Positions 6,111 to 39,974 of a stretch of 39,974 nt of DNA are shown here, one piece after another. The notes under the pieces were generated by a model. The model made no database searches. It saw only the letters and a program-made list of their open reading frames with translations, and was not told the DNA's origin. The position numbers and the translations under genes are program-made. This DNA comes from a virus. Location: positions 1 to 39,974 of IMG/VR virus record IMGVR_UViG_3300042868_005188. One strand, 5' to 3'. The stretch's first letter is position 1, and the number at the start of each line of letters is the position of its first letter.

Positions 6111-7175
6111 CTACTTTCTACGAATTGACAGCCCTGCCGACGCAATAGAAGCCGCAGCAACCGCCACCAAAGCCCTCCGCTGACCCACCGGCACCTTCGA
6201 CCCGGTGGGGACATAGTTATCAAACTTGCCTGAAAACACATTCACCTCAGACTCAAACTGCTTTTTGATTTCTGTTGGCGCATCCGACAAAGCCTCAGCC
6301 AACTGTGTCAACTCGGTGTCTGATAGTTCTTCCAGTTGCCCAACGATCTGTTCCAACTGCTCAACTGTTGCCGGTGCCTCGATCACTGTGGTGGTGGTCA
6401 CCGGGACCGTGGTGGTAGTCGTGGTCGTGGTAGTCGTGGTCGTGGTAGTCGTGGTAGTGCTGGTACTTGTGGTGGTTGTTCTTGGCACAGTTGTCGTAGT
6501 CTGAACCAATGGCTCAGTGGTTGTGGTCAATACCGGCATTTCTGTTGTGGTTGTGGGCAGCTCGACAGTTGTTGAAGTAGATGTTGTTGATGGCTGAACT
6601 GTGGTGGAAGGTACGGCAACGGTTGTCGTTGTTGTATCTGGAACACTGGTGGAAACTTGAACGGCTGTGGTGGTCGTCAACAACACGGGTTCCGTGGTTG
6701 TCGTCACGTCAACAAAAGTTGTTGAAGGCTCAACTGTCGTGGTGGTGGTTTCGGGTGTGGTCGTGGTGGGTTGTTCAACTGTTGTCGTTGTCGTTGTGGT
6801 GGGAACAACTGCCACACCGGTGGTTGACACATCGTATTGAACGCCGTTATACCAACGATTTGGGTCGCCGCAACAAACACCTGCCCTAAGACGAAACCAG
6901 CCTGCTGGTACTTGAATCTCGAGTTGCGATTGCAAACCGAACCAGTCGTCGTTTGCTGCAAGCAAAACACCTTCCTGGTTGTACAGCCACAGCATCGGAT
7001 CCGAAAATGATCCTTGCACGTCAAACGTGCGGGCGTAAAAAACGGTTGGTTCCGAATAGTAAAACCACAGATCCGTGGGTTCTGTTATCCGAAGATTGTC
7101 AGCTTTTGCTGTACTTGGTATCAGTAAAGCAAACGGTAAAAGAAGAAGTAGGCGACTAAGCTTCCGGGGTGTCAA
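6111..7175 (-). CDS. Secreted Thr-rich mucin-like protein with C-terminal TM
   Basis: I place the start at TTG 7173-7175. This gives a textbook signal peptide (MTPRKLSRLLLLLPFALLIP, cleavage near AKA-DN), preceded by GAGG. The longer ATG reading from 7259 overlaps the holin-like gene by 104 bp. After the signal comes a ~95-residue beta-type domain (LRITEPTDLWFYYSEPTVF, ANDDWFGLQSQLEI, AGVCCGDPNRW). About 140 residues dominated by Thr with V/P/E follow, then a helical segment (VEQLEQIVGQLEELSDTELT), and finally a hydrophobic stretch and RRK (ALVAVAAASIASAGLSIRRK). The design is an exported domain on a stalk, anchored in the membrane. It may alter the infected cell surface (superinfection exclusion) or be virion-associated. 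Thr stretches of this type are frequent in Acidimicrobiia surface proteins. Confidence 0.78.
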   Translation of the reverse strand: MTPRKLSRLLLLLPFALLIPSTAKADNLRITEPTDLWFYYSEPTVFYARTFDVQGSFSDPMLWLYNQEGVLLAANDDWFGLQSQLEIQVPAGWFRLRAGVCCGDPNRWYNGVQYDVSTTGVAVVPTTTTTTTVEQPTTTTPETTTTTVEPSTTFVDVTTTTEPVLLTTTTAVQVSTSVPDTTTTTVAVPSTTVQPSTTSTSTTVELPTTTTEMPVLTTTTEPLVQTTTTVPRTTTTSTSTTTTTTTTTTTTTTTTTVPVTTTTVIEAPATVEQLEQIVGQLEELSDTELTQLAEALSDAPTEIKKQFESEVNVFSGKFDNYVPTGSKVPVGQRRALVAVAAASIASAGLSIRRK

Positions 7176-7479
7176 CTGGCGCAGCCTCAACTGTGCCCTT
7201 CGACTCGTTGTATGCGGCTCGGGTTTCTGACTTGACCCCAAACGCTTCGTCCACCTCATCAGCGGTCAACTTGCCATCAAGCGATGCCTGCGCCAACTTG
7301 GTAAGAACGTTCGCTACAGCGGTGAAACCGGCTAGTGCTGCTGCGTACCACAACGGCATCTGCTGCTCAGGGTTGATGGCGTTGATAACCGAGGAACCAG
7401 TGATGATGCCGAGCGATGACACCAGGAACAGGGCGATCATGCGGCCCATAATGTCTTTGGCAACTTTAATACTCATCAT
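7156..7479 (-). CDS. Holin-like membrane protein
   Basis: 107 residues with two hydrophobic helices, about 11-33 (GRMIALFLVSSLGIITGSSV) and 43-60 (PLWYAAALAGFTAVANVL), followed by LTKLAQASLDGKLTADEVDEAF and an acidic tail (about 60-107). The layout 'two TM then K-L..DGKLTADE.D.AFG' is common in actinophage proteins annotated as holins. It sits just after the tail-fibre genes at the head of the lysis block. Its 3' end overlaps the Thr-rich gene start by 20 bp. The start could be at either of two adjacent ATGs. Confidence 0.78.
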   Translation of the reverse strand: MMSIKVAKDIMGRMIALFLVSSLGIITGSSVINAINPEQQMPLWYAAALAGFTAVANVLTKLAQASLDGKLTADEVDEAFGVKSETRAAYNESKGTVEAAPVDTPEA

Positions 7480-33967: not shown

Positions 33968-34702
33968 TCACTGTCTCACTGGCATGAGTAGAACGGTTAG
34001 CTTGTGTTCGGTGCCGGTGATGCTCATGATTGCGGGTTTGTTGGGTTGTAGGTGCTCGATGAGTAGCGGTAGCTCGGTTTTGGTGCCGAATAGGTGCCGG
34101 GCTGCTTTGTGCGGGTTGGTGAGTTTTTCGGAGTTGAGTGCTACCGGTCCGGCGTGTTCGCGGGTTGTGGGGAATAGTGGTTTCCATTGTGGGAACTCGG
34201 CCCGGATTAGTGCCTCGTTTCCGGTGGTGGTGGTGCCGTTCATGTGAGTGAGTGCCCATTTTCCGGACTCGGTGTTTATGGTCAGTGTGCTGCTGGCTTG
34301 GTTTTGTTTGGGGTCTTGTTTGGCTGCTGCGGTGAGTGCGGGCAGGATCTCGGCGAGGTTCAGTGTTACCGGTTCGGTGACGTTGTGCTCGACTGCGGTG
34401 GTGGTGATTTGGGCTAGCTGGTATGCGTCAGTGGCCACAATGTCGAGGGTGCCGGGTTCTGTTCCTGGTTGGATTTGTGCGCCGGTTAGGTGGTATTTAG
34501 TTTTCTCAGTGGTTGCGTACACTTTGGCGGCGTTTAGGATTGCGGCCAGGGTGCCGGCTGTGGCTGTCAGTGTGATTTGTGCCGGGTTGGTTGGTGCCGG
34601 TTGTGGTTCGCAATCGTGGCCGTAGTGCCATTCTTCGGCCTGGGTTTCGTCGAGTAGGTCGAAGATCCGGTTGCACTCCGGGCATTTTGTGGTGGTGTTC
34701 AT
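33968..34702 (-). CDS. DnaN-like sliding clamp with N-terminal zinc ribbon
   Basis: 244 residues. Residues 7-31 hold CPEC...HDC (CPECNRIFDLL, YGHDCEPQ), a zinc-ribbon-like addition. The rest resembles a bacterial beta clamp: AGTLAAILNAAKVYATTEKT, PGTLDIVATDAYQLAQITTT (the conserved 'ATDxxxLA' strand), VTLNLAEILPALTAAAKQDP, ALIRAEFPQWKPLFPTTREH (clamp-like 'FP.......P' turn), and a C-terminus TVLLMPVRQ matching the clamp 'xMPxRL' end. At about 200 clamp residues it is shorter than bacterial DnaN (about 370), so one of three domains is probably missing. No phage polymerase is present; it may recruit or divert host DNA polymerase or other clamp clients. Upstream ATGA overlap. Confidence 0.78.
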   Translation of the reverse strand: MNTTTKCPECNRIFDLLDETQAEEWHYGHDCEPQPAPTNPAQITLTATAGTLAAILNAAKVYATTEKTKYHLTGAQIQPGTEPGTLDIVATDAYQLAQITTTAVEHNVTEPVTLNLAEILPALTAAAKQDPKQNQASSTLTINTESGKWALTHMNGTTTTGNEALIRAEFPQWKPLFPTTREHAGPVALNSEKLTNPHKAARHLFGTKTELPLLIEHLQPNKPAIMSITGTEHKLTVLLMPVRQ

Positions 34703-34893: not shown

Positions 34894-35069
34894 GGTTGTG
34901 GCCTGTCTAGTTTTTGTGCGCACACTGTCGAGCAAGCTGTCCATGTTTCGGCGGGTCCGTCGGTGTGGATTATGTCGCCAATAGTTAGCGGTTGGCCGCA
35001 TTGTTGGCAGCTGGTTTCTTCTGTCATGTGGGTGACAAGGTAGCGGGGGTATTTGGTGCGGGTGTTCAT
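34890..35069 (-). CDS. Zinc-finger small protein (59 aa)
   Basis: ATG 35067-35069 follows the previous stop by 2 bp. The sequence has CQQC at residues 21-24 and C...C further on (ETWTACSTVCAQKL), a four-Cys site with GQPLTIGDIIHTDGP between. The pattern is that of a small treble-clef or FCS-type zinc finger ('H.DGP..TW..C'). It starts MNT like two neighbouring proteins of the same operon. Probably binds metal; the role is unknown. Confidence 0.7.
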   Translation of the reverse strand: MNTRTKYPRYLVTHMTEETSCQQCGQPLTIGDIIHTDGPAETWTACSTVCAQKLDRPQP

Positions 35070-35071
35070 GG

Positions 35072-35194
35072 TTATCGGCCACACTTTGCGCATGGGATCC
35101 TATGGGCGGGGTCGAGTTCGTGCCAGTCGGCGTTGTCGGCCCATGTGGTGAGATCGTCGGCGCAATCGGGGCACGTGAAATGGTCCGGGTTCAT
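35072..35194 (-). CDS. Zinc-ribbon micro-protein (40 aa)
   Basis: 40 residues from ATG 35192-35194, whose first bases overlap the previous stop (ATGA). CPDC (8-11) and CAKC (36-39) are separated by DDLTTWADNADWHELDPAHR, giving a two-knuckle zinc ribbon with the second knuckle at the very C-terminus (CGR-type end). Other frames across this stretch are Arg-rich shadows. One of a series of tiny metal-binding proteins in this phage. Confidence 0.7.
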   Translation of the reverse strand: MNPDHFTCPDCADDLTTWADNADWHELDPAHRIPCAKCGR

Positions 35195-35808
35195 TGTGCG
35201 GCCACTTTGTTGAGTAGTGCGAGCGCGGCGGCTGCCTGGGGTTGCCAGTAGATTTGTGAGATCTTGTGATCTTCGAGAGTGGCGGTCCAGGCCTGGGTTG
35301 CTGTGGTTATGTCGTCGTAGGCTTCGGCGTTGTCTCCGTAGAAATTGTGCACCCAATGCATGAGATCGGCGGCCACGTCTCGCGGCACGTGTAAGTGTCG
35401 GGTGAGTTTGTCGAGATCGGCGGCCACGTATTTGGTGAGTCCGGACCAGTAGGCCGCATTTGCGGCGGCGTGCATGGGTTCGCCGGTGTCATCAGATAGG
35501 TGGATTTCGACCAGGGGCGCGAGCTGTGGCCAGTAGTGCAGGATTGTTTCGTGGATCGCGCCGCCGGTAATGGTGCCATCTCTACCGGCGCGGCGGCTGC
35601 GTGGGTTGAACACTTCGCCAGTGATCGAGAAATAAGGCCGGGGATTGGCGTGTCGGTGTATGAGTTGGGCGCGAGCTTGCACCCGGACGGGTAGCACGTT
35701 ACCGGATCGGGATACGTGCCAGGGTTGGCCGTTGGGGTCGAGTGTGCTGGATTTAGTCCATTGGTTAGCGGCCAGTAGGGTTTCGGTGTGGGTAGCTGTG
35801 TAATGCAT
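35191..35808 (-). CDS. 205-aa protein of unknown function, first gene of GC-rich operon
   Basis: MHYTATHTETLLAANQWTKS opens the protein; PVRVQARAQLIHRHANPRPY and FSITGEVFNPRSRRAGRDGT give a basic middle; HETILHYWPQLAPLVEIHLS, LTKYVAADLDKLTRHLHVPR and DLMHWVHNFYGDNAEAYDDI form a helical C-terminal half. I recognise no family. The ATG lies 6 nt from a -10 box with no SD, so translation is likely leaderless. Codons are GC-richer than in the structural genes. Being first in an operon with a sliding clamp suggests a DNA-related role, but no motif supports it. Confidence 0.75.
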   Translation of the reverse strand: MHYTATHTETLLAANQWTKSSTLDPNGQPWHVSRSGNVLPVRVQARAQLIHRHANPRPYFSITGEVFNPRSRRAGRDGTITGGAIHETILHYWPQLAPLVEIHLSDDTGEPMHAAANAAYWSGLTKYVAADLDKLTRHLHVPRDVAADLMHWVHNFYGDNAEAYDDITTATQAWTATLEDHKISQIYWQPQAAAALALLNKVAAQ

Positions 35809-35814
35809 GGCGTT

Positions 35815-35843
35815 ATTGTGGCGGATTTGTGGCGGGTTGTCAA
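35815..35843 (-). promoter_or_regulatory. Leaderless sigma70-type promoter
   Basis: On the minus strand TTGACA (plus-strand 35838-35843) is separated by 17 bp from CACAAT (plus-strand 35815-35820). The 205-aa gene's ATG follows after only 6 nt, so transcription would begin at or next to the A of ATG and the mRNA would have no leader. The -35 is perfect; the -10 matches TATAAT at 4 of 6. Confidence 0.65.
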
Positions 35844-35877
35844 GTATTTAGGGCCGGGTGTTTTGTTGAGGATCCTG

Positions 35878-35945
35878 GGCCGGGGATCGTGGGCCGGTTG
35901 TCGAGGATCCTGACAACTAGATCGGGGCCGGGGATCGTGGGCCGG
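35878..35945. repeat. GC-rich direct repeats
   Basis: GGCCGGGGATCGTGGGCCGG occurs twice, at 35878-35897 and 35926-35945, exactly conserved. Between and around them are GAGGATCCTG copies (35869-35878 and 35903-35912) and a related GGGGATCCTG (35952-35961). The 48-bp offset of the long repeat and the repeated BamHI-like core suggest duplication of a short unit. Confidence 0.8.
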
Positions 35946-36053
35946 GGTTGTGGGGATCCTGGCAAGCTGCCGGCAATGATTGGCGGGGCGGGTGATCCGG
36001 GCAGCAGGGCCGGGGCCAGGGGTCTGACAAGTTTGGGGCCGGGGAACCTACCT

Positions 36054-36135
36054 TCGGTAGCAAACAACCCGCCCACTACTTTCGGTAGCAAGCGGGTTGT
36101 TCACGGGGACCGGGCAGATCAGTTACTTTCGGTAG
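36054..36135. repeat. TCGGTAG cluster, left (3 copies)
   Basis: TCGGTAG occurs at 36054-36060, 36082-36088 and 36129-36135, always in the same orientation (CTACCGA on the transcribed minus strand). One copy is in the loop of the terminator hairpin, one just beyond it and one in the last codons of the 76-aa gene. Confidence 0.85.
36063..36101 (-). terminator. Hairpin terminator after the 76-aa gene
   Basis: AACAACCCGC (36063-36072) pairs perfectly with GCGGGTTGTT (36092-36101) around a 19-nt loop, 17 bp beyond the stop of the 76-aa gene. On the minus strand the second arm ends in GTT and runs into TTGC, a weak U-tract. It probably ends the transcript started at 37.35 kb. Its loop holds one CTACCGA repeat. 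Confidence 0.6.
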
Positions 36136-36349
36136 TGGAACCCAACCTCGGACAGTCTGCGTATGGGAACTGTTCTTGTTCTTCACAAAAACAAAAGTTG
36201 AAAATCCCTACTTGTGTTTCGTGGGTCAAGTCAGCCAGATCACTGTACGACATTTCATCAGTGCCATGTTCAATAGCGTCACGCCAGTACGCAATGAACC
36301 GTTCACTTGAAATGACAACGGTGCCAGCAGGGTGGTGAACAATCTTCAC
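36119..36349 (-). CDS. Unknown protein (76 aa)
   Basis: 76 residues: MKIVHHPAGTVVISSERFIA, YWRDAIEHGTDEMSYSDLAD, then NFCFCEEQEQFPYADCPRL. The C-terminal half has three cysteines (CFC and DC), possibly metal-binding. It abuts the upstream gene with a 1-bp overlap and is the last gene before a hairpin terminator. One CTACCGA repeat lies in its last codons. No family recognised. Confidence 0.7.
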   Translation of the reverse strand: MKIVHHPAGTVVISSERFIAYWRDAIEHGTDEMSYSDLADLTHETQVGIFNFCFCEEQEQFPYADCPRLGSTTESN

Positions 36350-36780
36350 TACGACACCCTCACAACCATGTCCACTGCGCGGGTGCTGTGATCGTGGCGT
36401 TGCAAATGTTCACACCATGCTTCGTGATCCTCGCCAAGCATGATCCAGAACGCTTCGGTGTCTTTAGCGACCCCAAGTGTGAACGCTTCCCACACGGTGT
36501 CCCAGCTGCCACCAAGCTTGTCGCCACGCCAACCGTTCACAAGCACGTAGTCGTCGGATCCGTCCCCTGGTTGTTCGTGGAACACGTCAAAACCGTAGTC
36601 GTTCAGAAGATCAGTGAGCGCGGCACACTCACTGGTGAGCGTCCTGCCTTGTTCTGACGCACGGTACTCAAATGTTTCCCGGCACCATGACACACGTTCA
36701 GTGGTTAGATAGTCAAGTACCGGTGTGGGGTCCGTCACGTAGAACGAATCACCCTTTACTAATGAGGCGTAGTAACCCAT
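36349..36780 (-). CDS. Unknown acidic protein (143 aa)
   Basis: 143 residues beginning MGYYASLVKGDSFYVTDPTP. Aromatic, acidic blocks follow: DLLNDYGFDVFHEQPGDGSD, DYVLVNGWRGDKLGGSWDTV and AFWIMLGEDHEAWCEHLQRH. Phage and actinobacterial proteins starting 'MGYY' or 'MGW' with a similar alternation of W/Y and acidic residues exist as uncharacterised families, which I cannot name with certainty. SD AAGGGAAAC lies upstream. It belongs to the three-gene unit from the 37.35 kb promoter. Confidence 0.7.
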   Translation of the reverse strand: MGYYASLVKGDSFYVTDPTPVLDYLTTERVSWCRETFEYRASEQGRTLTSECAALTDLLNDYGFDVFHEQPGDGSDDYVLVNGWRGDKLGGSWDTVWEAFTLGVAKDTEAFWIMLGEDHEAWCEHLQRHDHSTRAVDMVVRVS

Positions 36781-36795
36781 GATTATTGTTTCCCT

Positions 36796-37302
36796 TCAGT
36801 TTGTTGTTTCTTCGAGCTGTAAATCAGCTGCGAGATCGTGAACGTACACTGACATTTCGTTGCTGTCAAGTAATGGTTCAATGCCACCCAACACGGCGGT
36901 GTCAATGGTGCGGCGGGTTCCACAATGATCGCATGTTTCAATCAAGTTCAGGAACACTGTTTGGAACCCATAGTCAAGTATGTCTCTCACTTGTTGGCGT
37001 AGTGAACTACGGAACTGTGGATTGCTGTACCACTGGTCCCGGCAATCTGTTGGTGGTTGCCACCACACCCGGCTGTCGCGGGTGTCAATGATCTCGGCCA
37101 TACCGTCGAAATCTTCGGGTCTGCTGCCGGTGTTGCTGTACCAGTTTTTTCGAGTGTTGAACGAGACACGCCCGTAACAATCGAAATCGTTGATCGTGGC
37201 GAGATCGTCGTACTCAAACTTCAGTTCAAGCGCGAACCTCTCACCAATGTTCACTGTTTCGTGGTCAAGTAGCGCGGCCACTTGTTCGTCTGTCAGTTTC
37301 AT
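36796..37302 (-). CDS. Unknown protein with CxxC (168 aa)
   Basis: 168 residues: MKLTDEQVAALLDHETVNIG, ELKFEYDDLATINDFDCYGR, VWWQPPTDCRDQWYSNPQFR, DILDYGFQTVFLNLIETCDH-CGTRR, then LLDSNEMSVYVHDLAADLQL. It has one CDHC knuckle near residue 118 and many acidic and aromatic residues. It is the first gene behind a consensus promoter and has a strong SD (AGAAGGGAAAC), so it should be well expressed. An anti-host or regulatory role would fit such placement, but nothing in the sequence defines it. Confidence 0.72.
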   Translation of the reverse strand: MKLTDEQVAALLDHETVNIGERFALELKFEYDDLATINDFDCYGRVSFNTRKNWYSNTGSRPEDFDGMAEIIDTRDSRVWWQPPTDCRDQWYSNPQFRSSLRQQVRDILDYGFQTVFLNLIETCDHCGTRRTIDTAVLGGIEPLLDSNEMSVYVHDLAADLQLEETTN

Positions 37303-37313
37303 GTTTCCCTTCT

Positions 37314-37337
37314 GTGCAACCGGTGGATCCGGTGCAC
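37314..37337 (-). promoter_or_regulatory. Bulged hairpin/operator in 5' leader
   Basis: GTGCAACCGG (37314-37323) and CCGGTGCAC (37329-37337) pair with a single bulged A and a 5-nt loop. The element lies between the promoter at 37344-37372 and the SD of the 168-aa gene, suited to an operator or an mRNA structure that controls translation. Confidence 0.45.
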
Positions 37338-37343
37338 AACGGG

Positions 37344-37372
37344 ATTATGACAACAACCAGTTAGCTTGTCAA
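37344..37372 (-). promoter_or_regulatory. Consensus sigma70-type promoter
   Basis: On the minus strand TTGACA (plus-strand 37367-37372), a 17-bp spacer and CATAAT (plus-strand 37344-37349) form the best promoter in the window. Transcription would begin about 35 bp upstream of the 168-aa gene ATG. The -35 lies in the last codons of a 32-codon ORF. Confidence 0.8.
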
Positions 37373-37459
37373 GTCATTACACCACCACAACAGAACAAAC
37401 GTGATCTCCCAATCTTCGATCACCCACTCCACACTGTCCCACAATGTTGGTTCAGACAC
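37361..37459 (-). CDS. Trp-rich hydrophobic micro-protein (32 aa)
   Basis: GTG 37457-37459 overlaps the stop of the upstream ORF by 8 bp and is preceded by AGGGG at 6 nt. The peptide MSEPTLWDSVEWVIEDWEIT continues FVLLWWCNDLTS: an acidic, Trp-rich N-terminus followed by a short hydrophobic stretch. Size and composition would suit a membrane-active or regulatory peptide. Support is the SD and tight operon fit; no homology is claimed. Confidence 0.45.
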   Translation of the reverse strand: MSEPTLWDSVEWVIEDWEITFVLLWWCNDLTS

Positions 37460-37832
37460 GTTTCACCCCTATCAGTGGAAGATACAAACCGGGTCGCACT
37501 GTTGGCCGACACCACTTCAACCGGGTCGCTTCACTCAACGCCCACTGGATAGTGGTGGCAAAAATCGGTAGTTCACGATCCTTCAGTTCGGTAGCAACAT
37601 CTTCGGTAGTGAAAGTGGCACGTATCGGTAGCCTCCGCAGGGCCACAAACCGTACTGTTTGCAGCACATCAAATCGGTAGCGAACCTCGGTAGCCCAGGG
37701 TGCTAGTTTCGGTAGTGGACCCGCTGCACCGTCACCCTTCCGGTGCGGCGGGTCTTTTATCTGCGATCCGTTCCCGTTCACGTGGGGTTTTCCCACCGAA
37801 CATGCCGAACCGGTACGGTTGGTTGTGTTCAT
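37452..37832 (-). CDS. Winged-helix-like protein overlapping CTACCGA repeats
   Basis: Open frame of 126 codons; the start is uncertain. ATG 37830-37832 overlaps the WhiB gene by 101 bp, GTG 37779-37781 by 50 bp, and an internal GTG would give a 73-aa form. The first ~45 residues are atypical (GSACSVGKPHVNGNGSQIKD). The rest looks like a winged helix: RYRFDVLQTVRFVALRRLPI, TFTTEDVATELKDRELPIFA, TTIQWALSEATRLKWCRPTV, RPGLYLPLIGV. It may be a DNA-binding regulator. Seven CTACCGA copies lie within 37565-37715 of this ORF, in all three frames, so the gene and the repeat may be functionally linked. A GC hairpin lies at its 5' end. Confidence 0.6.
   Translation of the reverse strand: MNTTNRTGSACSVGKPHVNGNGSQIKDPPHRKGDGAAGPLPKLAPWATEVRYRFDVLQTVRFVALRRLPIRATFTTEDVATELKDRELPIFATTIQWALSEATRLKWCRPTVRPGLYLPLIGVKRV
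37718..37754 (+). terminator. Hairpin with plus-strand U-tract at whiB 3' end
   Basis: GACCCGCTGCACCG (37718-37731) pairs with CGGTGCGGCGGGTC (37741-37754) with one mismatch and a 9-nt loop. TTTTAT follows on the plus strand, so it reads as an intrinsic terminator for rightward transcription. The loop contains the stop of the first WhiB gene and a GGAAGGG SD-like run on the minus strand, so it could instead sequester a ribosome-binding site. Confidence 0.55.
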
Positions 37833-38007
37833 GGTGTAACGCGAACTCTAAACATGTGTTTCGTACTGTGCATTGCAAACATAGGAGTCGAGCCTGGTTG
37901 TAGGGGCCGGTGTTGTTGTCAGGGAAGAAAACTTCGGTAGCTGCGCCGACACATGCGGCGTGTTCCTGCCACGCTTGGTCAATAAAAATCGGTAGCGGGC
38001 TGTTCAC
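37732..38007 (-). CDS. WhiB-family iron-sulfur regulator (distal copy)
   Basis: 91 residues with all WhiB hallmarks: C19 (EHAACVG), then LLCLQCTVRNTC with C43, C46 and C52 (C-x2-C-x5-C) for a 4Fe-4S cluster, the Gly-rich turn GMFGGKTPRERERI, and a short basic tail. WhiB-like proteins are restricted to actinobacteria and their phages. They bind sigma factor region 4 and alter promoter choice. It lies 5 bp downstream of a second whiB-like gene. Two CTACCGA repeats occur within it (37934, 37989). Confidence 0.92.
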   Translation of the reverse strand: MNSPLPIFIDQAWQEHAACVGAATEVFFPDNNTGPYNQARLLCLQCTVRNTCLEFALHHEHNQPYRFGMFGGKTPRERERIADKRPAAPEG

Positions 38008-38012
38008 CAGTG

Positions 38013-38270
38013 TCAGGCTACTTGTTGTTGGCGTTTCCTGTGGAGAGTGGCACGTTCATCTGGGCTGAGGCCGCCGTACACACCGTGTCTGCCGTAGGTT
38101 GGGTCTGTTTCGATCAGCATGGCGTACTCTAAACAGTCGGTTTGGACAGGGCATTGTTGGCATAGGTTTTTGGCCCGCTGGTATGGGTAGCGTTCGGTAG
38201 CTTTCCCTTTTTCGAGAAAAAAGGTGCCGAGGGACACACCGCGACAGGCAGCGTCATTGATCCAGTTCAT
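38013..38270 (-). CDS. WhiB-family iron-sulfur regulator (proximal copy)
   Basis: 85 residues from ATG 38268-38270, which overlaps the upstream zinc-finger gene's stop (ATGA) and has GAAGGGAAG as SD; the longer frame to 38324 is not needed. C9 (NDAACRG), then NLCQQCPVQTDC with C37, C40 and C46, then GVYGGLSPDERATL and a basic tail. It differs clearly from the next WhiB copy, so it is not a recent duplicate. Probably redirects host or phage transcription via the sigma factor. One CTACCGA copy lies inside (38194). Confidence 0.92.
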   Translation of the reverse strand: MNWINDAACRGVSLGTFFLEKGKATERYPYQRAKNLCQQCPVQTDCLEYAMLIETDPTYGRHGVYGGLSPDERATLHRKRQQQVA

Positions 38271-38431
38271 TTCTTTTTTCTTCCCTTCTTTGGTTCTGGT
38301 TCTTGTTTCCGGTGGCACCAGCATTGGCAGTGGGCCACATCTTCTTTGGTTCTTTTCTGCAACAGATCTGAAACTGTCCAGCAGTGGTCGCAGAACCCTG
38401 GCGACCCATCGTATGTGTCAGGACGAGACAT
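38267..38431 (-). CDS. Cys/His-rich zinc-finger micro-protein (54 aa)
   Basis: A 54-codon ORF filling the gap between the MazG-like and whiB genes. ATG 38429-38431 overlaps the upstream stop by 14 bp and its TGA overlaps the WhiB ATG as ATGA. CDHC at residues 14-17 and HCQCWCH at 34-40 give an unusually dense set of metal ligands. A Lys-rich tail follows (RKQEPEPKKGRKKK). The tight packing strongly supports coding. It may bind nucleic acid through the basic tail. Its link to the WhiB genes is noteworthy. Confidence 0.75.
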   Translation of the reverse strand: MSRPDTYDGSPGFCDHCWTVSDLLQKRTKEDVAHCQCWCHRKQEPEPKKGRKKK

Positions 38432-38705
38432 GTGCCATGTTCATGCAACCGAGATACCCGATTGCGTCCACCAACGAGTCGTGGTGCCATGTTCCACGTT
38501 CACGTGCTGTGCGTAACCGTGCCATCTTGACAGCCACCATGAAACACAACGCTTCCTGCACGGTCAACTCAACACCGGTCAACCCGTAGAAAATGTCAAC
38601 TACTTTGCTGTAATCCTCAACAGGGTGAGCGTATTGGTTTTGTCGCGGCCCTGTGATCAGCTCATGTGCTTCATGCAGGATCTCCGCACCCTTCGAAACA
38701 CTCAT
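38418..38705 (-). CDS. DUF6378 / MazG-like protein
   Basis: 95 residues. EILHEAHELITGPRQNQYAH and DYSKVVDIFYGLTGVELTVQ are followed by EALCFMVAVKMARLR and HDSLVDAIGYLGCM. The 'R...Y..P..D......F....G..L...D.......K.AR......DSLVD..GY' pattern matches DUF6378, a phage family with the all-alpha NTP-pyrophosphatase (MazG-like) layout. If active it would hydrolyse nucleotides or clean the pool; E/D ligands are partly present (E51, D76 area). It sits between SSB and a zinc-finger gene. Activity is uncertain. Confidence 0.78.
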   Translation of the reverse strand: MSVSKGAEILHEAHELITGPRQNQYAHPVEDYSKVVDIFYGLTGVELTVQEALCFMVAVKMARLRTARERGTWHHDSLVDAIGYLGCMNMAHVSS

Positions 38706-38706
38706 G

Positions 38707-39108
38707 TCAGAACGGTTCTTCGTCTGTCAGTTTTGCTTGCGGGAACGCTTTACCGATTTGGGCTACCACTTGTTCGCTGCGATCCAAGAGGGCAACATCC
38801 CAACGAACAGACAGGCCACCGTCATCAGCGATCAACTGAAACTTGGAACCTTTCTTACCGTCTTTGGTTTCCCATTCCTTCTTTTCCATGCGACCCACAA
38901 TGATCACACGGTTACCTTTTTGGAATGAGGCCGCAAAGTTTTCGGCCAGTTTGTCAAACGCGACAACATCAAACCATGTGGTTTTCTTATCGTTTTGGGT
39001 TTTGCGGGTCACCCCAACAGACACCTCGATGGTGGCAAGGCCGTTGTTGGTGTAACGCAACTCTGGTTGTTGACCCACGTTGCCTGTGATTGTGATTTGG
39101 TTACTCAT
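38707..39108 (-). CDS. ssb: Single-stranded DNA-binding protein
   Basis: 133 residues from ATG 39106-39108, which overlaps the upstream micro-protein stop (ATGA) and has AGAAGGGAAC as SD. The OB fold reads ITITGNVGQQPELRYTNNGL, ATIEVSVGVTRKTQN, TTWFDVVAFDKLAENFAASF, QKGNRVIIVGRMEKKEW and FQLIADDGGLSVRWDVAL. The C-terminus LTDEEPF matches the acidic SSB tip (D-D-x-P-F type) that recruits partner proteins. It protects ssDNA from the phage exonuclease and supports replication and annealing. Confidence 0.93.
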   Translation of the reverse strand: MSNQITITGNVGQQPELRYTNNGLATIEVSVGVTRKTQNDKKTTWFDVVAFDKLAENFAASFQKGNRVIIVGRMEKKEWETKDGKKGSKFQLIADDGGLSVRWDVALLDRSEQVVAQIGKAFPQAKLTDEEPF

Positions 39109-39239
39109 TTTGTTCCCTTCTGGGTTAGTGGTGTTGTTCGCTGCCCTTGTTTCGGGCAGCTGTGTGTTGGTGGATAGGTCAATGTGATCAGTGTTTCGAT
39201 TTTTGCGCCGCAGTAACGGCACTCCCACTTCTGTTTCAC
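39105..39239 (-). CDS. Zinc-binding micro-protein (44 aa)
   Basis: A 44-codon ORF with GTG start 39237-39239 overlapping the upstream stop (GTGA) and a TGA overlapping the ssb ATG (ATGA). Residues 5-10 are WECRYC, then GAKIETLITLTYPPTHSCPK with a third cysteine. This 'W.C..CG......V...PP...C' layout resembles small Cys-rich proteins found in many mycobacteriophage-type genomes. Double 4-bp overlaps make coding very likely. Role unknown. Confidence 0.78.
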   Translation of the reverse strand: MKQKWECRYCGAKIETLITLTYPPTHSCPKQGQRTTPLTQKGTK

Positions 39240-39757
39240 GGTTTCTTATTCTTACCTATCCAACGGTCAGGGTCAAGGCTCTTTCTTTTAGCTATGCAAC
39301 CCCAACCGTTGAAACCTACCGGTTGTTTTGAGTAGGTGAAAAAATGGAATCCGAGCACCGCGATGCGGTTGGCGACCACCATTTGTTCTGCTTTGGTTGC
39401 TTGCCAGGGGGTTGGGGCGAAATGTCTGCCACCCCACCTAACCCATGTGCCGATGTAGATACCAAGACCACCGGACCAGCGGCCTTTGTCTCGCCAGTCG
39501 GCGGTGTACCCATCTTTTGATGATTCGCAGATGGCAACCTGTTCCCAATACTCAATTGGTGGCACACCTGGTTGTTTCATTTGTTCCCTCAGCTCAATCA
39601 CCCCTTTAGGGTCGGCTGGTTTTGACGGGATTTGACCGCGATATGGCGGGCGGTGAACGCTCATTTCCCTTTCTTGGTTCCCTTCTGGTGCTAGGGCCTG
39701 TGCTGATGCACCGGCGATGACGGATAAAGACAGGATTAGTGCAGCGACGATCCGCAT
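39236..39757 (-). CDS. Secreted Rpf/transglycosylase-like protein
   Basis: 173 residues with a clear signal peptide (MRIVAALILSLSVIAGASAQ, cut near residue 20). A linker follows, then a lysozyme-like resuscitation-promoting-factor domain: IEYWEQVAICESSKDG with the catalytic Glu at 78, WSGGLGIYIGTWVRWGGRHF, and TKAEQMVVANRIAVLG. It ends in a basic tail. Rpf-like domains cleave peptidoglycan glycan strands and are characteristic of actinobacteria. Made in the early-type operon with SSB, it would be exported through the host Sec route. It may help lysis or remodel the wall of dormant hosts. SD AAAAGGAGAAC is near-perfect. Confidence 0.88.
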   Translation of the reverse strand: MRIVAALILSLSVIAGASAQALAPEGNQEREMSVHRPPYRGQIPSKPADPKGVIELREQMKQPGVPPIEYWEQVAICESSKDGYTADWRDKGRWSGGLGIYIGTWVRWGGRHFAPTPWQATKAEQMVVANRIAVLGFHFFTYSKQPVGFNGWGCIAKRKSLDPDRWIGKNKKP

Positions 39758-39784
39758 GAGTTCTCCTTTTGACGGGGGACAGGA

Positions 39785-39799
39785 CTACGTAGGGGCCAT
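39785..39799 (-). other. SD-preceded minigene (M-A-P-T-stop)
   Basis: On the minus strand AAAGGAGAACG is followed by ATG GCC CCT ACG TAG. A nearly identical SD (AAAGGAGAAC) precedes the Rpf-like gene ATG 28 bp further on. This may be a translation-regulating minigene or a duplicated SD remnant. An 11-codon frame from ATG 39818-39820 covers the same bases. Confidence 0.4.
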
Positions 39800-39824
39800 C
39801 GTTCTCCTTTCAGCAAACATCAGA

Positions 39825-39902
39825 TCACCCTATCAAGGGGTCTTGTGTCACTTGTAATCGGCTAAACACAGCCCCGCACCACTCACAGGTTGGGTTGCTC
39901 AT
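39825..39902 (-). CDS. Possible 25-aa CxxC peptide
   Basis: A 25-codon ORF (MSNPTCEWCGAVFSRLQVTQ, then DPLIG), overlapping the 3' end of the 78-aa gene in another frame and spanning the circle junction. It has one CEWC knuckle, like the first half of a zinc ribbon. With one knuckle only, it would need to dimerise to hold a metal. Low support beyond the knuckle and its place in the operon. Confidence 0.35.
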   Translation of the reverse strand: MSNPTCEWCGAVFSRLQVTQDPLIG

Positions 39903-39974
39903 CTTCTACCACTTCCCACCATTCATCTGCGGCTTCTTCCAATTTGCGTCTTTCTTCGGAAACGACATACTCGA
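39838..39974. repeat. Direct terminal repeat, right copy (circle overlap)
   Basis: Identical to positions 1-137 apart from T at 39848 (C at position 11). See the left copy for interpretation. Confidence 0.93.
39883..39974 (-). CDS. Small acidic helical protein, copy without its start (window end)
   Basis: The 3' 92 bases of the 78-aa gene found complete at 46-282, repeated because of the terminal redundancy. The N-terminal coding part is cut off by the window end. This is one gene on the circular map, not a duplication. Confidence 0.85.
   Translation of the reverse strand, partial: EYVVSEERRKLEEAADEWWEVVEDEQPNL

Follow-up and report, generated by a model that had tools for sequence, protein, structure and literature searches.

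In the viral contig IMGVR_UViG_3300042868_005188 (IMG/VR; positions 1 to 39,974, hereafter the window), the heptamer CTACCGA occurs 13 times, always in the same orientation and always within one locus of about 2 kb. This array is a real, conserved, and unusual feature: in many related phages the word, its orientation, and a two-cluster layout are all kept. We propose, with a probability of roughly 0.35, that the heptamers form an oriented cis-acting array of putative sites for a sequence-specific DNA-binding protein, which would act on transcription of the locus.

A one-directional heptamer array

An initial annotation, made from the sequence alone, had listed 13 occurrences of TCGGTAG, the reverse complement of CTACCGA, spanning 36054-38200. 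All 13 positions proved exact, and exact counting bore out the further claims that no copy lies elsewhere in the window and that only one orientation is used (13 copies of TCGGTAG on the plus strand and 0 on the minus strand, placing CTACCGA on the coding strand). The annotation's expectation of about five copies over the two strands is also arithmetically right (2 x 39974/16384). Measured against null models, the word is in excess over both Markov and codon-preserving expectations. Markov models based on the window give expectations of 1.0-3.5 plus-strand copies for orders 1-4 and of 6.9 for order 5, a model that partly encodes the motif itself. In 60 order-2 simulations CTACCGA reached at most 3 copies per 2150 bp, and no heptamer at all exceeded 9. 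Only four heptamers in the window have at least 8 copies all confined to 2.2 kb; TCGGTAG tops them with 13, and another of the four, TTCGGTA (8 copies), is the same motif. One-mismatch variants are not enriched in the array region, indicating that the word is sharply defined and exact. The base preceding CTACCGA is a purine at 13 of 13 sites, and the base following it is A or T at 12 of 13.

The sites and neighboring features, all on the minus strand, are listed here in the direction of transcription (ORF, open reading frame; aa, amino acids; nt, nucleotides).

38013..38324, minus strand: WhiB-family gene (PF02467, E 4e-16)
38194..38200, minus strand: CTACCGA site in this upstream WhiB gene
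37732..38007, minus strand: WhiB-family gene (PF02467, E 2.5e-17)
37989..37995, minus strand: CTACCGA site in WhiB gene 37732-38007
37934..37940, minus strand: CTACCGA site in WhiB gene 37732-38007
37452..37832, minus strand: 126-aa ORF with seven sites, winged-helix-like by eye, at the position of the winged-helix gene of relatives
37709..37715, minus strand: CTACCGA site, cluster A, frame 0 of the 126-aa ORF
37687..37693, minus strand: CTACCGA site, cluster A, frame 1 of the 126-aa ORF
37674..37680, minus strand: CTACCGA site, cluster A, frame 2 of the 126-aa ORF
37625..37631, minus strand: CTACCGA site, cluster A, frame 0 of the 126-aa ORF
37603..37609, minus strand: CTACCGA site, cluster A, frame 1 of the 126-aa ORF
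37588..37594, minus strand: CTACCGA site, cluster A, frame 1 of the 126-aa ORF
37565..37571, minus strand: CTACCGA site, cluster A, frame 0 of the 126-aa ORF
37344..37372, minus strand: sigma-70-like promoter match TTGACA-17-CATAAT (11/12), between clusters A and B
36796..37302, minus strand: ORF of 168 aa, no family, between the clusters
36349..36780, minus strand: ORF of 143 aa, no family, between the clusters
36119..36349, minus strand: ORF of 76 aa whose end holds the first cluster B site
36129..36135, minus strand: CTACCGA site, cluster B, 3' end of ORF 36119-36349
36063..36101, minus strand: hairpin with 17-nt arms, 82% complementary, containing site 36082
36082..36088, minus strand: CTACCGA site, cluster B, within the hairpin; either non-coding or part of a doubtful 83-aa ORF (35840-36091)
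36054..36060, minus strand: CTACCGA site, cluster B, directly past the hairpin; either non-coding or part of that doubtful ORF

Eleven of the 13 sites fall in listed gene ORFs (three in WhiB genes, seven in the 126-aa ORF, one at the end of the 76-aa ORF), and two lie outside convincing ORFs. Relative to the 126-aa gene, which holds seven sites, three more stand at +1.3 to +1.4 kb and three upstream, a layout that recurs in relatives. The seven copies within the 126-aa ORF occupy all three codon frames (0,1,2,0,1,1,0), as the initial annotation had stated. Codon shuffling of this ORF yields 0.8 copies on average, and none of 5000 shuffles reaches the observed 7. Protein repeats are therefore insufficient to explain the array, and the signal is kept as nucleic acid.

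The annotation had also mentioned a terminator loop. The hairpin at 36063-36101 exists, but the terminator scan did not list it. Scanning the stretch for promoters gave 2 promoter-like matches where 1.3 are expected by chance. Just past cluster B, window 35837-36045 contains GC-rich direct repeats, with GGGCCGGGGATCGTGGGCCGG present twice and a GAGGATCCTGG-like 12-mer three times; after codon correction, CCGGCCC in this segment ranks second among words for repetitiveness.

Conservation of the array in related phages

Loci found by protein similarity provide the evidence for conservation that is independent of the motif. A scan with an alignment of the small winged-helix protein of relatives, whose gene lies between WhiB and terminase, returned 43 loci, 41 of them usable after two with partial genes (L209, L222) were dropped; it also re-found two contigs from a motif scan described below (L180 = G004, L189 = G002). 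In 29 of the 41 homologues, the winged-helix gene itself contains at least three copies (3-6) of CTACC[GA]A, every such gene exceeding its codon-shuffled versions at p<0.04 (400 shuffles), and CTACCGA alone reaches p<=0.05 under the same kind of shuffle in 17 of 41. Many of these loci are close or near-identical relatives, so the 29 genes represent a handful of lineages rather than 29. One homologue has CTACC[GA]A twice, and a subgroup of 11 has it 0-1 times. The outcome that the initial annotation had named as fatal, the gene being kept while the heptamers are lost, thus holds for that one subgroup and not for the others. In one lineage (L164, L148, L152), the gene holds four copies of CGCTACC spread over all three frames.

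To profile copies along the locus, 16 loci (the window and 15 relatives) were picked by hand to thin out near-identical ones, as were six lineage representatives. Across the 16 loci, with the direction of transcription inferred from the genes, 84 copies are forward and 3 reversed. The 15 thinned relatives have 44 CTACCGA in the gene, 0 at +1 to +600, 21 at +600 to +2400 (11 of 15 loci), and 1 at +2400 to +5000, with 5 upstream and 3 reversed over everything. Among 419 permuted words of the same letters, the in-gene count averages 0.7 with a maximum of 25; the downstream count averages 2.2 with a maximum of 20, so that none reaches 21, and 3 reach 11 loci. The six lineage representatives contribute 17 copies in the gene and 10 downstream, neither of which is reached by any of the 419 words. 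The array-less group 4 (8 loci, profiled apart) has 6 CTACCGA in the gene and 5 at +600 to +2400, with 2 reversed there, and 4 and 9 of the 419 permuted words do as well.

An alternative motif, GCCGTAA, was considered for the array-less winged-helix subgroup and rejected, being not significant in 5 of 6 genes and reaching P 0.03 over the locus in 1 of 8 loci. The Streptomyces phages phiScoe10 and Sentinel have winged-helix homologues without such repeats. A scan with the terminase gave 42 relatives, many of them short pieces; 12 have the winged-helix gene, and each has 0-3 CTACCGA in either orientation.

Viral contigs were also scanned for triple close TCGGTAG, giving at least 118 stretches, many of which are tandem repeats or belong to unrelated elements. 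Among the matches listed, five contigs (G001-G005) have several proteins in common with the window phage; because they were selected by the motif, their copies cannot count as independent support for enrichment. On those that include both WhiB and terminase, the heptamer cluster occupies the interval separating the two genes, and the coding strand reads CTACCGA. G004 and G002 each have a group of five copies within a single gene of ~120 aa, which takes the position of the 126-aa ORF in the window. Under codon-preserving shuffling, these two genes and the window gene average 0.3-0.8 copies, and the observed 7 (window), 5 (G004), and 5 (G002) are never reached in 5000 shuffles each. The same gene ranked first for codon-corrected heptamer repetition among ORFs of 80 aa to 1500 nt, with z 16.2 in the window (44 ORFs), 4.5 in G004 (39), and 3.6 in G002 (38), where the ORF caller picked an overlapping frame with 4 of the 5 sites.

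G003 and G005 yielded no winged-helix gene. Both contigs are incomplete, were picked up through the motif itself, and match each other at 91-97% over most of the aligned regions. Sites nevertheless occupy both cluster places in the same orientation, with none reversed in that stretch. They lie in the last codons of a C5 methyltransferase gene (PF00145) in G003 and in a different 112-aa ORF in G005, and further in the next stretch, outside ORFs of at least 55 aa or perhaps in a short zinc-ribbon-like ORF. Two sites in G003 and one in G005 follow 1.4-1.7 kb downstream. A C5 cytosine methyltransferase gene is variably present at the locus among relatives (L132 7741-8805, L161 2467-2967, upstream of several winged-helix genes).

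The unrelated elements include a TCGGTAG array beside a Rep_3 initiator (L034 6096-6360), one after a Prim-Pol/VapE pair (L010 2414-2681), and one beside a tyrosine integrase, with close pairs resembling arm-type sites (L057 2137-2399).

The window phage itself encodes a large terminase (phrog_38), two WhiB proteins, SSB, a YqaJ-type recombinase, an annealing protein (SSAP), an exonuclease, and RusA. The terminase of record OX376640, in our reading a cultured Ca. Planktophila phage, is only 26.7% identical to that of the window, and the record shows only scattered copies of the word (4 forward, 1 reverse). Among 50,697 phage records, the array locus has no DNA match, the 581-aa protein adjoining the terminase has no match, and every terminase match is below 60% identity; this is a phage family without a near isolate in that set. 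Neither the 126-aa protein nor the WhiB encoded at 38013 retrieved a relative from viral contigs, and genome contigs scanned with the winged-helix alignment gave no match. The WhiB genes suggest actinobacterial hosts; whiB is also carried by Ca. Planktophila phages in culture, whose genomes are similar in size (PMC10202952). Elsewhere in the window, a 244-aa protein (33968-34702) matches a DNA polymerase processivity factor PHROG at E 1e-6 and a RusA-like PHROG better, at E 1e-10, and similar proteins occur in several relatives; a 382-aa protein (6111-7259) combines a long threonine-rich low-complexity stretch with an N-terminal hydrophobic segment.

Candidate readers, mechanism, and rival explanations

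The initial annotation had tied the array to the WhiB genes, a link that is not supported. The nearest relative in gene content that has both tandem WhiB genes (L161) contains one CTACCGA and one reversed copy without any cluster, and in the window only 3 of 13 copies lie in WhiB genes. We therefore rejected WhiB as the link to the array.

The suggestion that the array sits at a winged-helix gene holds for the relatives but not demonstrably for the window. The relatives' family gives a confident fold model (predicted local distance difference test score, pLDDT, 86.4) that predicts a small DNA-binding fold. The nearest PDB folds to this model are PadR/LmrR/MarR-type regulators and ORC chains, all weak and none with E <0.001, and the family's PHROGs have no known function. 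The window's 126-aa protein has in common with this family its position, its approximate size, and a short FTTEDV-type stretch. Among possible readers the winged-helix protein is the foremost candidate, although evidence against it is given below.

How might such an array work? Cluster A lies within the gene that precedes a putative internal promoter, this gene being the small winged-helix gene in most array-bearing relatives, and the looser cluster B follows ~0.6-2.4 kb downstream. The putative sites, facing the direction of transcription, would most likely act on RNA polymerase passing through or starting in the locus, as directional roadblocks or operators in the manner of stoperators. If the phage's own small winged-helix protein were the reader, the circuit would be autogenous, as the initial annotation had suggested. 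We infer that the reader binds double-stranded DNA, is encoded by the phage, and targets transcription. The single orientation in coding and apparently non-coding parts alike speaks for a directional process. Action on transcription, through orientation-dependent sites of the stoperator kind, needs the fewest extra assumptions: an 11/12 promoter match lies between the two window clusters, and a TTGACA-type promoter 3' of the gene is readable by eye in several relatives. Transcription control by orientation-dependent asymmetric sites is a documented mode (PMC9283540). A regulatory interpretation of the array is a reasonable hypothesis.

Several observations weigh against this proposal. The window sites show no helical phasing. 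The window's 126-aa protein gives a model with pLDDT of only 43, and hhalign gives no support for its homology to the winged-helix family (8.8%). Eleven of 41 winged-helix homologues lack the array, while G003 and G005 have sites without a detected winged-helix homologue. Across 13 compared records (two plainly partial; queries from three genomes), no gene tracks the presence of the array cleanly and none is confined to array-bearing genomes, so that co-occurrence does not name the reader. It is also surprising for one reader family that CTACCGA stays constant across proteins ~23% identical. The loci profiled above are related and not independent, and some permuted words also score high. Conservation at synonymous positions, which the initial annotation had raised, is suggestive only: in group 1, 8 of 10 site codons are invariant compared with 43 of 74 elsewhere, and p ranges over 0.06-0.31 for two groupings and two tests. 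Gene content thus fails to account for the array, since G003 and G005 have sites but no detected winged-helix gene, whereas 11 winged-helix genes and L161 have no array. It seems instead to belong to the locus, where it is either maintained as nucleic acid or travels with the locus in recombination.

A replication origin is a possible, if doubtful, alternative to control of transcription. The heptamers would then be iterons for a phage initiator, with cluster A lying inside the initiator gene as the lambdoid ori lies in O; oriented repeats in a small winged-helix gene do resemble the lambda O layout described in PMC7466680. Scans that covered part of the window ORFs found SSAP, exonuclease, YqaJ, RusA, and SSB but no polymerase, helicase, primase, or known initiator; given no recognized replication genes, an uncharacterized gene may recruit the host replisome. 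Segment 36176-36205 (77% AT), one of the contig's eight AT-richest 30-bp windows, is 41 bp from a cluster B site, and G002 has an AT-rich 30-bp window ~80 bp before its first cluster A site, although none is listed at cluster A of the window. The TCGGTAG arrays beside the Rep_3 initiator and after the Prim-Pol/VapE pair also favor an origin. However, window 34973-39974 contains no DnaA box with up to one mismatch (G002 and G003 have single one-mismatch boxes within ~0.3 kb of sites), and the cumulative skew extremes lie elsewhere in the window. The irregular, unphased spacing is unlike the 4-6 iterons of lambdoid origins, the sites extend over 2 kb and several genes, and 11 of 41 homologues have no array.

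Three other explanations fare less well. An RNA signal, with CUACCGA in the transcript bound by a protein or small RNA to control translation, stability, or antitermination, would account for the strict sense-strand orientation, for sites in both coding and apparently untranslated parts, and for the site in a transcript hairpin. That site is partly paired, however, and mean accessibility of the 13 window sites is 0.070 against a background of 0.071 and below the 0.128 of composition-matched words, with 17 of 30 local shuffles reaching the window value. In pooled relatives, 62 sites are slightly more accessible than 746 composition-matched words (0.205 vs 0.192, p 0.027; related sequences). With no window excess and this one nominal p value, display in RNA loops has little support, and we consider an RNA signal unlikely. 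Sites for a host factor (Chi-like, orienting a DNA translocase, or a packaging signal) that the phage accumulated at this locus would be directional, would keep their place through different genes, and would require no phage gene to sort with the array; moreover, the G002 and G004 contigs begin at different points of a common gene order, compatible with headful packaging. Such sites seem improbable, given their restriction to one locus rather than the whole genome, the several relatives without an array, and the ~3 kb and other genes that separate them from the terminase. Finally, the array could be a by-product of protein repeats and codon preference in Thr-Asp/Glu, Leu-Pro, or Tyr-Arg stretches. 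Most copies in groups 1 and 2 do lie in one frame, encoding TE/TD, and the ORF tails of G003 and G005 are ATATD-like repeats. The codon-preserving shuffles (0/5000 each in the window, G002, and G004), the spread over three frames seen in group 3 as well as in the window, and the two window copies outside convincing ORFs make this account very improbable.

Beyond the proposal of transcription control, we tentatively raise a more general one: that the phages of this actinobacterial type may have a two-cluster cis module, a directional array bound to the locus and kept as DNA whether it runs through a winged-helix gene, a WhiB gene, a methyltransferase tail, or another ORF. If true, a directional control signal would be embedded in protein-coding DNA, across three frames and more than one gene, defining a class of phage control element within coding sequence rather than between genes. 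It also suggests that searches limited to intergenic DNA overlook phage regulatory sites. The array offers a ready test, comprising one heptamer and a few candidate readers of ~100 aa.

Comparison with known systems

The stoperators of cluster A mycobacteriophages (PMC9283540) resemble the array in being short, asymmetric, present in many copies, and oriented with transcription, as are all 13 window sites. Stoperators, however, are scattered genome-wide, in promoters and short gaps between genes, whereas the array is confined to ~2 kb, with 11 of 13 sites in ORFs; copies in relatives are likewise clustered, with few scattered ones. The immunity repressor whose structure is solved contacts its stoperator site as a monomer through two domains, and that of L5 is 183 residues long, while the candidate here, of ~102-126 aa, is predicted to form a single winged helix.

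Start-associated sequences of cluster K mycobacteriophages (PMC3203893) are also non-palindromic repeats mostly in one orientation. They typically stand 3-7 bp before start codons, whereas the array sites lie inside ORFs or at gene ends. A separate contig (L145 70-1594) has seven copies of CTCCTGTC (five of CTCCTGTCTTA) in one orientation throughout; read by eye on the opposite strand, most of these resemble a repeated ribosome-binding sequence, TAAGACAGGAGG, shortly 5' of a start codon and recall start-associated sequences.

The lambdoid ori, with its iterons inside gene O (PMC7466680), is similar in placing repeated, oriented sites in the gene of a small DNA-binding protein. The array differs from it in its irregular spacing, 7-bp core, second cluster 1-2 kb away, and lack of a clear AT-rich tract at cluster A, and in having sites also where the winged-helix gene is not found. 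The iterons of a Rep_3 plasmid or prophage (L034) and the integrase-side repeats (L057) use the same directly repeated heptamer, TCGGTAG. Those arrays belong to unrelated elements, are more regularly spaced (11/22/31 bp), and adjoin an initiator or integrase, so that their use of this word is apparently convergent.

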